From assembly GCA_947625505.1 (NCBI GenBank), contig CANQON010000016.1, forward strand, positions 1 to 34,550: DNA of 34,550 nt, given 5' to 3'. Position numbers and translations under genes: made by a program. Positions within the stretch are counted from its first letter, which is position 1. The number at the start of each line of letters is the position of its first letter. The notes beneath the pieces were generated by a model. That model ran no database searches and had not been told where the DNA came from. It was given only the letters and a program-made list of their open reading frames with translations. Positions 2,858 to 9,786 of this stretch are shown piece after piece. The stretch is from an uncultured Bacilli bacterium (GTDB lineage Bacteria > Bacillota_I > Bacilli_A > RF39 > UBA660).

Positions 2858-3199
2858 GGGGTCGTCTAGTTTCGACGGATCTACTGGTACTTAGATGGCA
2901 AGTCGGAGGTACACGTTAAGTACAACCCAAAAATAACTGGAAACAGATTAAATTTAGCTTTCGCTTAATAGACTAAGAAAGCGCTTCTTATAGTTCTTCT
3001 CCCACGAGGATTATAAGGGGCTCATCATTGTGGGATATATTATTATCATGCTTATAGTAATAATGAATTTAATAAGCTTACTAAAAAATGGGTTGTTAGT
3101 TACTAACATTTTTTAGGACATATGTATAACTGACTAAACTTGTAGAGGTCTAGGGGTTGGTATTTTCGGACATGAGTGCAATTCTCATCGACTCCACCA
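2858..3199 (+). ncRNA. ssrA: tmRNA (transfer-messenger RNA)
   Basis: Rescues ribosomes stalled on broken mRNA with SmpB, adding a degradation tag. The 5' end GGGGTCGTCTAGTTTCGACGG is the tmRNA signature; its first seven bases pair with CGACTCC at 3189-3195, followed by A and the encoded CCA (3197-3199). A T-arm-like GGACATGAG..CTCAT lies just before. The most plausible tag frame ends LNLAFA at two stops, TAA (2966-2968) and TAG (2969-2971). Read from CCA at 2927 the tag is PKITGNRLNLAFA; the exact resume codon is uncertain and may be the AAC at 2924. A -LAFA end rather than -ALAA resembles the hydrophobic -YAFA tags of Mollicutes. Length is 342 nucleotides. Confidence 0.95.
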
Positions 3200-3204
3200 G
3201 ATTG
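3190..3204 (+). repeat. Direct repeat copy A (ssrA 3' end)
   Basis: GACTCCACCAGATTG, spanning the 3' end of ssrA and five bases beyond it. It recurs with one mismatch at 3541-3555. Duplicated ssrA 3' ends are typical attachment sites of elements that integrate into tmRNA genes. Confidence 0.6.
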
Positions 3205-3236
3205 ATGATTAACTCGAGCTATTCGAGTATAAAGTG

Positions 3237-3263
3237 AGCGACTTGCAAAAAAGTCGCTTTTAT
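3237..3263 (+). terminator. Terminator after ssrA
   Basis: An 8-bp stem (AGCGACTT 3237-3244 with AAGTCGCT 3251-3258), six-base loop, then TTTTAT. A second small palindrome (ACTCGAG..) at 3212-3228 precedes it. Confidence 0.9.
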
Positions 3264-3427
3264 GTTATTATGAATTTGTCAAGGAAACTTGCATAAAATA
3301 AAAAAGGGAACATTCAGTTTTTGCGAGTTGAATGTCTACCCAAAATAAATTTGTTTAAACATTTAATTCAATGAAGAATTAAGTGTCATTTTTTATAACT
3401 ACTATCATAATGATAAGGAGAAATAAA

Positions 3428-3523
3428 ATGATAGTAATGAGCTTGAGAACTTTATATTTCAACAAAGTAGGGTATGTGTGTCCTAAAAAAATATGTAATA
3501 TATTTGGTGTGATAAATTATTAA
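3428..3523 (+). CDS. Candidate 31-residue small protein
   Basis: ATG 3428 to TAA 3521-3523 encodes 31 residues starting MIVMSLRTLYFNKVGYV, with two cysteines (CPKKIC) near residues 18-23. A near-ideal RBS AAGGAG (3415-3420) lies seven bases upstream, the main reason to list it. It sits inside the candidate transcript behind ssrA, upstream of a small hairpin and the terminator, so it could also be a leader peptide. No family recognised. Confidence 0.35.
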   Translation: MIVMSLRTLYFNKVGYVCPKKICNIFGVINY

Positions 3524-3540
3524 TGCTGAAAGCATAGTAG

Positions 3541-3555
3541 GACTCCACTAGATTG
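3541..3555 (+). repeat. Direct repeat copy B (imperfect ssrA 3' end)
   Basis: GACTCCACTAGATTG, one mismatch from 3190-3204. Both copies are followed by a short AT stretch and an 'ACTC' hairpin. This fits an old attachment-site scar, or a local duplication. No integrase gene lies between the copies. Confidence 0.5.
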
Positions 3556-3561
3556 TTAATA

Positions 3562-3588
3562 AACTCTTATTTTATAAGAGTTTTTTTA
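3562..3588 (+). terminator. Terminator of the post-ssrA segment
   Basis: AACTCTTAT (3562-3570) pairs with ATAAGAGTT (3574-3582) across a three-base loop, followed by six T. Confidence 0.85.
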
Positions 3589-3596
3589 TTATATTA

Positions 3597-3605
3597 TGAT
3601 ATAAT
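3597..3605 (+). promoter_or_regulatory. Extended -10 promoter
   Basis: TGATATAAT at 3597-3605, about 23 bases before the start codon of the next gene. There is no clear -35, since that position falls in the preceding terminator. Confidence 0.65.
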
Positions 3606-3627
3606 ATTAGTTATTTAGGGGGATTAT

Positions 3628-4452
3628 ATGAATAAGATTAGATATATATCACCATATTTTCAAATGGTAAGAGATAATAGTACTTTTTTTAAAGCTTATT
3701 ATTTTCATTCTATAATTGATTTAAATTTAACTAAATTAGATAGTATTTTAAAACATGGTATTATGTGTAAAAGAGATATAGAAAGAAATCATTTAATTAC
3801 TCTTTATACACATGATGCAAGATCCTTTGATTCTAAGAATGGATCTAGTTGTGTATCTTTAACATCTTATAGTGATGAGAATTCTTTTAATACTTTATTT
3901 GAGTCATTTCCAACCCATACTTTAACATCATTATCACTTATGGTAAGTAAAGATATAAAAACTTCAAAAGTAGGGGAAAGTGAAACATTCTTTGATGATG
4001 AAATATTTTATCATGGTAGTATTAGTAAAGAATATCTTCAAGGTATTATTTATCCTGAACATTTAACTAATCTATTAATTAAAGATGTTAATCCTTTACC
4101 TAATGATTTAGAATGTTATACTAAAAAATATTTATTAAATTGGTTAAAATGGATGGAGATATATTTTGGTTTAACTATTGCGTCAGATAAACTATTAGAT
4201 TATATTGATACTTTTTGGGATATAGCTTCAGAATACGAATGCCCTGAAAGATGGGTAGAGGGTATTATAAGAACACAAAAAGAAAAATATGGTGAAGATC
4301 TTAAAGATGTTTTAGCTAGTATATTACATACTTGTTGGACTTTAAAATTACAAAAAGATAATCCTACATTTCAAGATGTAGTAATTAATTTAAATAATAA
4401 TTCTTTACCAATTTATGAAATAAAACAAAAAGTATTAAGAAGAGTATCTTAA
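3628..4452 (+). CDS. Unrecognised protein, possible ADP-ribosyltransferase-like fold
   Basis: 274 residues, soluble, no signal peptide. The first half has the layout of small ADP-ribosyltransferases of the DarT/KptA kind. First comes FHSIIDLNLTKLDSILKHGI (26-45), a strand, a His and an 'L..IL.HGI' helix. Next is a SCVSLTS strand (74-80), and then DDEIFYHGSISKEYLQGI (123-140), where the Glu before the strand followed by 'gSI..eYl.GI' recalls the catalytic Glu segment. That gives a possible His27-Ser-Glu125 triad. The second half (about 145-274) is helical and unfamiliar. No antitoxin-like macrodomain partner is adjacent, so a DarTG pair is not supported. RBS is AGGGGGA before ATG 3628. It is a single-gene unit with its own promoter and terminator. 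The fold assignment is inference from motif spacing only. Confidence 0.4.
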   Translation: MNKIRYISPYFQMVRDNSTFFKAYYFHSIIDLNLTKLDSILKHGIMCKRDIERNHLITLYTHDARSFDSKNGSSCVSLTSYSDENSFNTLFESFPTHTLTSLSLMVSKDIKTSKVGESETFFDDEIFYHGSISKEYLQGIIYPEHLTNLLIKDVNPLPNDLECYTKKYLLNWLKWMEIYFGLTIASDKLLDYIDTFWDIASEYECPERWVEGIIRTQKEKYGEDLKDVLASILHTCWTLKLQKDNPTFQDVVINLNNNSLPIYEIKQKVLRRVS

Positions 4453-4509: not shown

Positions 4510-6138
4510 ATGAAAAAGAAAAAGAAAAGTAGTAATACTTATTTTATTAGAAATATATTACCAATAATTATTACTATTGTATTTGGATTATTGATGTACT
4601 ATATATTTTTACCCCCACTTAATATACATAGTTTTGCTTTTTGGTTTTATATTGTAATGTTATTATTAGTTTATTTTATTTCTTCAGTAATATCAAAAAT
4701 AGAGAAGAATAAGGTTATTGTTGTTAATGAAATAAATAATCCATCTAAAGTTATATTTGGCTTAATACTATTAATTATCTTTGGAGGAATTATTGTTAAT
4801 GTATGTGTCTCACCAATTTTTAATTCTAAGAGTTATTCTAAAAGAATAACAATTAATGAAGATACAACCTTTACAGAAGATGTTAAAGAAGTAGACTTTA
4901 AAAAGATTCCTTTGTTAGATAAAGAGTCTAGTCAAAAATTAGGTGATCGTGTTATGGGAGAAATGCCAGAGTTAGTTTCCCAATTTGATGTATCTGATTT
5001 ATATACGCAAATTAATTATAATGATGAAATAACACGTGTTACACCACTAGAATATTCTGGTATAATTAAATATTTTTCTAATCGTAAAGATGGTGTAAAA
5101 GGATATATAAAAGTAAACTCTGTTGATGGTAAAACAGAATTAGTTAAATTAGATAAAGGTATGAAATATATGCCTAGTGCTATGTTTAATGAAAATCTTA
5201 ATCGTAAGTTAAGATTTAGTTATCCAACAGAGATATTTGGTACTCCTTCATTTGAAATAGATAATGAAGGTAATCCATATTGGATTGTTCCTACTGTTAC
5301 ATATTCAGGAATAGGTATGAAAGAAAGAGTAACAGGTATTGTTGCTTTAGATCCTATTACAGGTAAGAGTAATAAATATAATTTAGAGAATATTCCTACT
5401 TGGATAGATCATGTATATAATGCTGATTTAATAATTGAACAAGTAGATGATTGGGGAAAATATCGTAATGGATTCTTTAATTCTTTATTTGGGCAAAAGA
5501 ATGTTGTTGCGACAACCGAAGGATATAACTATATGGTTATGGATGATGATGTATATCTTTATACAGGTATAACTTCTATCTTAGCTGATGAAGCTAATAT
5601 TGGTTTTATTTTAACTAATATGCGTACAAGAGAAACACATTATTATGCTGTACCAGGTGCTGAAGAATTTTCAGCTATGAGTAGTGCTGAAGGACAAGTT
5701 CAACAAATGGAATATCGTTCTACTTTCCCATTATTAATCAATCTAAATGGTAAACCTACATATTTAGTATCATTAAAAGATAATGCAGGCTTAGTAAAAA
5801 TGTATGGCTTTATTGATGTTCAAAATTATCAAAATGTTGTAGTAACTGATTACCAAGATGGTATTGAAAAAGCTGCTAAAAATTATTTAAATAGTTATAA
5901 AGAAGATGAGGAAACACCTAAAGAAGAATTAGAAAAAGATGTAACTATAAGTAATTTAAAAACAGTTATCATAGATGGTAATACTTATTATTATTTTGAA
6001 AGTGATAAACAAAAATATCGTGTTTCAATTAAAGTAAATCCTGAATTATTACCATACTTATCTAATAATGATAAAGTAAGTATTAAGTATAGAGAAGAAA
6101 AAGACTTAATTGAAGTATCCGATATTAAAACCAAATAA
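4510..6138 (+). CDS. Membrane protein with large extracytoplasmic domain, function unknown
   Basis: 542 residues. A Lys-rich start is followed by three membrane helices (about 14-34, 40-61 and 82-103), then a long soluble region (about 105-542) predicted outside the cell. The soluble part is beta-rich, with repeated dipeptide patterns such as GNPYWIVPTVTYSG, GIVALDPITG and GFINV-like strands. A C-terminal segment (about 475-542, TISNLKTVIIDGNTYYYFE..) looks like a small separate beta domain. I do not recognise the family. An RBS (AGGAGG) sits six bases before ATG 4510. The gene has its own promoter and shares a bidirectional terminator with the converging HAD-like gene. A role at the cell surface is likely from topology alone. 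Confidence 0.8.
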   Translation: MKKKKKSSNTYFIRNILPIIITIVFGLLMYYIFLPPLNIHSFAFWFYIVMLLLVYFISSVISKIEKNKVIVVNEINNPSKVIFGLILLIIFGGIIVNVCVSPIFNSKSYSKRITINEDTTFTEDVKEVDFKKIPLLDKESSQKLGDRVMGEMPELVSQFDVSDLYTQINYNDEITRVTPLEYSGIIKYFSNRKDGVKGYIKVNSVDGKTELVKLDKGMKYMPSAMFNENLNRKLRFSYPTEIFGTPSFEIDNEGNPYWIVPTVTYSGIGMKERVTGIVALDPITGKSNKYNLENIPTWIDHVYNADLIIEQVDDWGKYRNGFFNSLFGQKNVVATTEGYNYMVMDDDVYLYTGITSILADEANIGFILTNMRTRETHYYAVPGAEEFSAMSSAEGQVQQMEYRSTFPLLINLNGKPTYLVSLKDNAGLVKMYGFIDVQNYQNVVVTDYQDGIEKAAKNYLNSYKEDEETPKEELEKDVTISNLKTVIIDGNTYYYFESDKQKYRVSIKVNPELLPYLSNNDKVSIKYREEKDLIEVSDIKTK

Positions 6139-9545: not shown

Positions 9546-9551
9546 GTGTTT

Positions 9552-9786
9552 ATCGACTTTGATTAGGACTAGTATTATTTATTACTTAATAGAGAGTTCA
9601 TGGTTGGTGGAAATGAATATGTTAATTAATAAGAAGACACCTAGGAGTTATTTATTTGAATAAAGTAGGATAAATCGGATGAGCCGTTATCTCATTAAGT
9701 GACTATGTACTTAGTATGTAGTAAGTAGGGTGGTACCACGGATTCAACAGTTATTCGTCCCTTTGTGGATTGATAACTGTTTTTTT
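9552..9786 (+). promoter_or_regulatory. T-box riboswitch, specifier GAC (Asp)
   Basis: Uncharged-tRNA sensor controlling the next gene. Visible parts: AGAGAG (9591-9596) and GGTTGGTGG (9602-9610) of stem I; specifier GAC (9636-9638) in the context GAAGACACC; and the T-box core AGGGTGGTACCACG (9727-9740). The terminator stem is ACAGTTAT (9747-9754) with ATAACTGT (9773-9780) and a T run. GAC is an Asp codon, in agreement with the downstream aspartyl-tRNA synthetase. Uncharged tRNA-Asp should favour the antiterminator and raise expression. Confidence 0.92.

Follow-up and report, generated by a model that had tools for sequence, protein, structure and literature searches.

A probable decayed toxin–antitoxin cassette behind ssrA and its family of predicted peptide modules at tRNA and tmRNA gene ends in uncultured Bacilli

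The par system of plasmid pAD1 (RNA I/RNA II, Fst) and its chromosomal homologues combine a hydrophobic peptide with an antisense RNA, with convergent promoters, overlap at the terminator and complementarity at the leader (PMC7472228); the signature of the Fst/Ldr peptides is a tryptophan between the transmembrane helix and a charged tail, together with a PxxxG motif (PMC7472228). Among elements that insert at the ends of conserved genes, the ssrA-specific islands of Dehalococcoides encode the serine recombinases DsiA/DsiB and are bounded by 20-bp repeats (PMC3146451), and the SCC/ECC islands (CcrAB, 3′ end of rlmH) are the best-known serine-recombinase cassettes (PMC6222049). In streptococcal integrative and mobilisable elements (IMEs) it is the tyrosine integrases that use tRNA targets, serine integrases being directed at protein genes (PMC5357655). 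Here we describe a block at positions 3205–3555 of a 34,550-nucleotide stretch of DNA (the window; contig CANQON010000016.1) from an uncultured Bacilli bacterium. The block lies directly behind ssrA, the gene for transfer-messenger RNA (tmRNA), and is very probably a decayed toxin–antitoxin (TA) cassette inserted there. Its relatives form a family of modules that resemble par and that recur behind many tRNA and tmRNA genes.

The block behind ssrA

The tmRNA gene, the insertion target, occupies 2858–3199 on the plus strand (Rfam RF00023, 148.8 bits; ARAGORN does not call it despite this good score), and its 3′ end takes part in a 15-bp direct repeat, GACTCCAC(C/T)AGATTG. The first copy (GACTCCACCAGATTG, 3190–3204, plus strand) is the ssrA end itself and forms the left junction, and the second (GACTCCACTAGATTG, 3541–3555, plus strand), a displaced ssrA end, forms the right junction. 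The imperfect copy noted in the original prediction is real: the two differ by one mismatch, no further site with up to two mismatches occurs on either strand of the whole window, and the chance expectation at local composition is about 1e-6 per 400 bp (3e-4 per whole window).

A comparison of the ssrA flank among relatives, which the original prediction had proposed as its check, shows gain or loss of the whole block. In three genomes of the same genus (G003, G004 and G011) ssrA is followed directly by GACTCCACCA(G/T)TTTG(T/C)TAA..AACTCTTA..TAAGAGTTTTT, and the TTAATAAACTCTTATTTTATAAGAGTTTTT that follows the second repeat in the window matches the GTTTGTTAACAAACTCTTATTTTATAAGAGTTTTT that stands directly 3′ of ssrA in these genomes. 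Positions 3556–3588 (plus strand) thus hold the original ssrA trailer and terminator, which the block has displaced 351 bp downstream. Because the ssrA site is empty in the three sister species and their ssrA terminator is the one found behind the second repeat in the window, we take 3205–3555 to be an insertion. An Islander-type test gives the corresponding picture, with an intact tmRNA at one end and a displaced target fragment at the other. We note that a second full tmRNA match (108.8 bits) lies on a small contig of the same assembly (G000:C50:21-412), which may be foreign given an assembly contamination of about 4%.

The antitoxin half of the block is intact. The cassette left end (3205–3230, plus strand) contains the hairpin ACTCGA-GCTAT-TCGAGT (3212–3228) and is of the type found in dozens of copies behind tRNAs, as well as in a serine-recombinase element behind ssrA of another genome (G014). 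Its sequence, CCAGATTGATG, is similar to the left ends of other cassettes (kATTGATAnnAAACTC), and CCAGATTGATGATTAACTCG is close to left-end type A, but the native ssrA trailer resembles type A too. There follows an intrinsic terminator of the ssrA transcript (3236–3259, plus strand; one found in the terminator scan against 0.0 expected), whose hairpin overlaps the −35 box of the putative antitoxin promoter, TTGCAA-17-TATTAT (3243–3271, plus strand). The promoter scan taken alone is not above chance for this site, and its spacing is conserved upstream of other copies. The predicted antitoxin RNA (3278–3394, plus strand), delimited by an alignment of 48 copies (A1), ends in a T-run and carries a first hairpin, CAAG-GAAA-CUUG (3280–3291), a second hairpin (3310–3335) and a terminator hairpin (3359–3386).

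The toxin half, by contrast with that of intact copies, has lost its head. A toxin gene remnant on the minus strand (3379–3453) retains only the C-terminal part, ...KVLKLITIILFLLIIMIVVIKNDT*, in a frame (...LKYKVLKLITIILFLLIIMIVVIKNDT*) that starts at no ATG and has no Shine-Dalgarno ribosome site. Homology to an intact copy elsewhere in the genome (C32) ends at 3453, which means that the toxin gene has lost its promoter, leader and ribosome site along with its first codons; 87 bp of unrelated DNA (3454–3540) stand in their place and in that of any standard right end. We found neither an integrase nor an integrase fragment within 3205–3555 and no open reading frame (ORF) of at least 80 amino acids there, in agreement with the original prediction. 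That prediction had also given the segment a terminator and a small ORF: the terminator at 3236–3259 holds up, and the 31-codon ORF (3428–3523, plus strand) runs antisense to the toxin remnant and is unlikely to be a gene.

The module family and its predicted toxin–antitoxin architecture

A search of the same genome (G000) with 3150–3640 found related DNA at six other places. The copy at C32 (88% identity over 227 bases) is intact and encodes MKIKTFIVKVLKLIAIILFLLIIMIVVIKK. The plus-strand unit of these copies consists of a promoter, TTGnnA-17-TAtnAT, followed by GTCAAGGAAACTTGCATAAAATAAAAA, and is preceded by the CCA end of a tRNA or by a CCA junction. Beyond this genome, a 27-mer scan of GTDB genome contigs returned at least 116 stretches, with titles mainly of uncultured Bacilli and related Firmicutes/Tenericutes metagenome-assembled genomes (MAGs). 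The module was found neither in viral contigs nor, with one intact copy as the only query, in phage and plasmid collections.

Among 139 non-redundant copies with enough upstream sequence, in which tRNA and tmRNA genes were called by ARAGORN, 54 have a tRNA or tmRNA gene 41–139 bp in front of them, with at least eight kinds represented (Leu 18, Arg 12, Thr 10, Met 5, tmRNA 5, Ala 2, Glu and Lys), where simple arithmetic (about 40 tRNAs per 1.2 Mb) would predict fewer than one by chance; a further 21 stand behind a CCA-like sequence without a tRNA. Dozens of modules behind many different tRNA and tmRNA genes point to a little-known cassette family that lands at tRNA gene ends. At three loci (L105, L116 and L090) three or four TA copies lie in tandem within a few kb.

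A minus-strand scan for a short hydrophobic ORF behind a ribosome site gave a match in 90 of the 121 copies that have enough downstream sequence. About 85 of these matches are mutually related putative toxin peptides, hydrophobic and 24–31 amino acids long, usually with a GGAGG-like site, so that a hydrophobic peptide gene with a ribosome site is present in about 85 of the 121 copies and absent from the decapitated window copy; the remaining matches are unrelated ORFs or ORFs of a neighbouring tandem copy. The peptides fall into six subfamilies (e.g. MNKKDFLILSLVILIFLLVLLLFIVLI, MKTKTFIIKVLKLIAIILFLLIIMIVVIKK and MTKREFSQFIIILLLFLVVIILLLK) and have no family above threshold in Pfam, NCBIfam or PADLOC. 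Between the toxin stop codon and the start of the RNA core there are 84–126 bp. Three hairpins make up the consensus fold of the 48 RNAs in alignment A1: CAAG-GAAA-CUUG, which is invariant, a second one and that of the terminator. Of the 22 consensus pairs in this fold, 12 show compensatory double changes; comparison with Rfam, including fstAT, gave no match near the gathering score, also in E-value mode.

The terminator stem of the antitoxin overlaps the toxin stop region, and the two transcripts would therefore be convergent and overlap there, with the toxin promoter read from sequence only. At a second site, outside their overlap in the DNA, the contiguous-pairing score of RNA to toxin leader is 19.5 within subfamilies versus 17.9 between them, a difference reached in 3 of 2000 label permutations; a duplex-energy version of the test, tried first, gave a weaker signal. 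The antisense RNA of a type I TA system is thus represented by an overlap at the terminator, which holds by construction, and by a moderate complementarity at the leader.

In all these respects (a hydrophobic peptide with an antisense RNA, predicted convergent promoters, overlap at the terminator and complementarity at the leader) the module resembles par, and we describe it as a par-like type I TA module of predicted toxicity. It differs from par/Fst (PMC7472228) in that its peptides lack the conserved tryptophan and PxxxG motif and match no Pfam or NCBIfam family, in that its antitoxin is about 115 nt rather than about 40 nt long and begins with an invariant 5′ GNRA hairpin, in that similar sequences are present as hairpins in both RNAs and not as plain direct repeats, and in that many copies stand behind tRNA or tmRNA genes. 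Judged from their sequences, these are previously undescribed, widespread, RNA-regulated peptide modules tied to tRNA and tmRNA gene ends.

Architecture, structure and the analogy to par/Fst together suggest how an intact copy might act. An antisense RNA of about 115 nt would be read from just behind ssrA and would stop at the terminator, which extends into the 3′ end of a convergent gene for a membrane peptide of about 30 amino acids, the putative toxin. Paired with the peptide mRNA at two places, its leader and the terminator that both transcripts share, the RNA would keep the peptide from being translated; once the cassette was lost, a stable toxin message would persist, and the cell would be killed or stalled. 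In the window the start region of the toxin has been replaced by unrelated DNA, including its first codons, ribosome site, leader and promoter, and therefore only the antitoxin half could still work. The window copy itself is a relic: what is left of it may be harmless, or its RNA may silence related modules at other sites of the genome.

Cassettes, arrays and a candidate recombinase

The same genome provides an intact form of the cassette (C3), which spans 1066 bp behind tRNA-Leu(caa) and contains no integrase. The tRNA ends in ..CAGGCACCA and is followed by a left end, the TA module, a gene for a 188-amino-acid protein of serine-hydrolase fold (Pfam PF06821), AGTTGTCGTACTTCTTCCTTTAG, GGCACCA and a terminator-like stretch, CAGGCACCA and GGCACCA being the two ends of the cassette. 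In sister genomes the flank of this tRNA-Leu site is too diverged for an empty site to be identified. Across loci, left ends behind CCA read kATTGATAnnAAACTCG or GTGACGTTTCTGTTCGAAC, and the standard right end was present at 24 distinct junctions in the loci examined, often behind other single genes and directly before another left end; cassettes can accordingly be arranged in arrays. Insertions may also consist of TA alone. Genome G006, of the same genus, has one behind ssrA with a toxin subfamily different from that of the window, and at L127 a 429-bp TA-only insertion lies behind tRNA-Arg with a displaced tRNA fragment of about 60 nt, an arrangement that looks closer to that of a classical tDNA island.

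A candidate enzyme is found in G014, where ssrA is followed by a standard left end, a large serine recombinase (Resolvase, Recombinase and zinc ribbon domains), a Mob_Pre relaxase, a standard right end and another left end. At E<=1e-40 this recombinase has relatives in 9 of 57 genomes, and most of those with available upstream sequence have a Leu, Gly, Trp, His or tmRNA gene roughly 500–800 bp in front of them. The left ends of these recombinase elements include the type B form of many TA cassettes. Because cassette left ends recur on elements with a recombinase and Mob_Pre, one of which also has the right end, we lean modestly towards mobilisation of the cassettes in trans: most likely, they would be placed behind tRNA and tmRNA genes by the large serine recombinases that are encoded on mobilisable elements with the same ends, although this applies with less confidence to the window copy, whose right end is atypical. 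The dyad symmetry of the cassette junctions, a mark of serine-recombinase attachment sites, was 0.378 at best against a shuffle maximum of 0.393. More tentatively, the system might be integron-like, with serine recombinases inserting cassettes at T-arm/CCA ends, cassettes accumulating in arrays and a TA module at the left serving as an addiction lock, of which the window copy would have had its toxin disarmed and its antidote kept.

Such elements would share serine recombinases in place of a tyrosine integrase with the Dehalococcoides islands (PMC3146451), from which they differ in that their ends also occur behind many tRNA genes, cassettes can be smaller than 0.5 kb, TA copies stand at the left end and the relaxase is Mob_Pre. 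With SCC/ECC (PMC6222049) they have in common large serine recombinases and insertion at the 3′ end of a conserved gene, although the targets here are tRNA and tmRNA genes rather than rlmH and single-gene cassettes come with a type I TA module. Streptococcal IMEs with a MobV-type relaxase (PMC5357655) likewise join a serine integrase to a small mobilisation relaxase, whereas their serine integrases target protein genes. For this group our search found no published report that links type I TA modules to tRNA ends or describes cassettes of this kind, subscription journals lying outside the search.

The tyrosine recombinases of the genome itself were considered as the cassette integrase and rejected: among the TA loci searched, they have relatives only in L095 (XerC/D-like) and L140. 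At the latter locus (genome G057) a 318-amino-acid tyrosine recombinase (4971–5927) lies behind a tmRNA–TA copy, is flanked by inverted repeats of about 26 bp (TCGTATAATACTTAATATTCTACGAT) and is followed by an operon of camelysin/TasA-like and signal-peptidase-like genes; this region looks like an invertible promoter switch. Elsewhere in the window, a gene for the sporulation peptidase YabG (Pfam PF05582; 1831–2610) lies shortly upstream of ssrA, in a MAG whose genome is small (1.66 Mb), and a T-box leader is present at 9550–9765 (RF00230, 141.8 bits).

Alternative explanations and implications

Taken together, the data argue for a decayed, non-autonomous TA cassette inserted at the 3′ end of ssrA, an insertion that left ssrA functional and a repeat of its end on both sides. 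Several observations weigh against this reading or against parts of it. The standard right end, AGTTGTnGTACTTCTTCCTTTAG before the CCA core, is not found at 3541, where the right end is atypical, and 3454–3540 has only short AT-rich matches in 58 genomes of the family; the present block therefore need not equal the original insertion. As many as 64 of the 139 copies lie behind neither a tRNA nor a CCA junction. The Fst/Ldr signature is absent from all six peptide subfamilies, complementarity between antitoxin and leader is only moderately above controls, and the TA reading as a whole is drawn from the sequences of uncultured organisms. Finally, the genome has no recombinase of the G014 family at E<=1e-40; it has seven other recombinases with the same Pfam domain.

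An alternative that we regard as possible, though unlikely, is that the block is what remains of a larger tyrosine-integrase island at ssrA, whose integrase and most of whose cargo were deleted while the TA module beside the left attachment site was kept. A 15-bp repeat with a displaced target fragment is typical of such islands (Islander, PMC4383910), the TA module of L127 lies between a whole tRNA-Arg gene and a displaced fragment just as they would leave it, and the right end of the window falls outside the class associated with serine recombinases. However, the block contains neither an integrase nor a fragment of one, apart from L095 and L140 the tyrosine recombinases of the genome have no relatives near the TA copies searched, and TA-only insertions with different toxin subfamilies have arisen independently at ssrA (the window and G006).

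The intact promoter, hairpins and terminator of the antitoxin beside a broken toxin, together with an intact relative at C32 whose toxin belongs to the same subfamily, would also fit a stand-alone regulatory RNA under selection, which protects the cell from the toxins of related modules (anti-addiction). We consider this doubtful for the window copy, since the block occurs in one genome only and a recent relic would look alike.

A duplicated ssrA tail or a chance repeat of no mobile origin, to which the single mismatch between the repeats and the AT-rich DNA might lend colour, is refuted by the chance figure of 1e-6 in 400 bp, the empty sites of the sister species and a content that is a dispersed repeat family unrelated to ssrA, leaving it a very slight probability. 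In particular, the family to which the enclosed RNA belongs has members behind Leu, Arg, Thr, Met, Ala, Glu and tmRNA genes, and ssrA is not its source; the suggestion in the original prediction that a duplicated ssrA tail had become a new RNA finds no support. Its two other proposals, the stub of a lost integrated element and a minimal satellite element, gain support from the empty sister sites and from integrase-less relatives behind ssrA and tRNAs; the type I TA-like content, the decapitated toxin and the widespread copies go beyond what it foresaw.

Under the preferred reading, an inserted and decayed TA cassette, a gut lineage for which MAGs are the main source of knowledge gains a module family that is associated with tRNA and tmRNA gene ends and numbers at least 116 loci. 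This family is in turn connected with cassette arrays and with the serine recombinases that lie behind many different tRNAs. If true, this would amount to a natural cassette system with broad tRNA targeting, in which addiction modules lock single genes behind tRNAs, and the window copy, with its antidote kept and its toxin broken, would be a natural test of anti-addiction.
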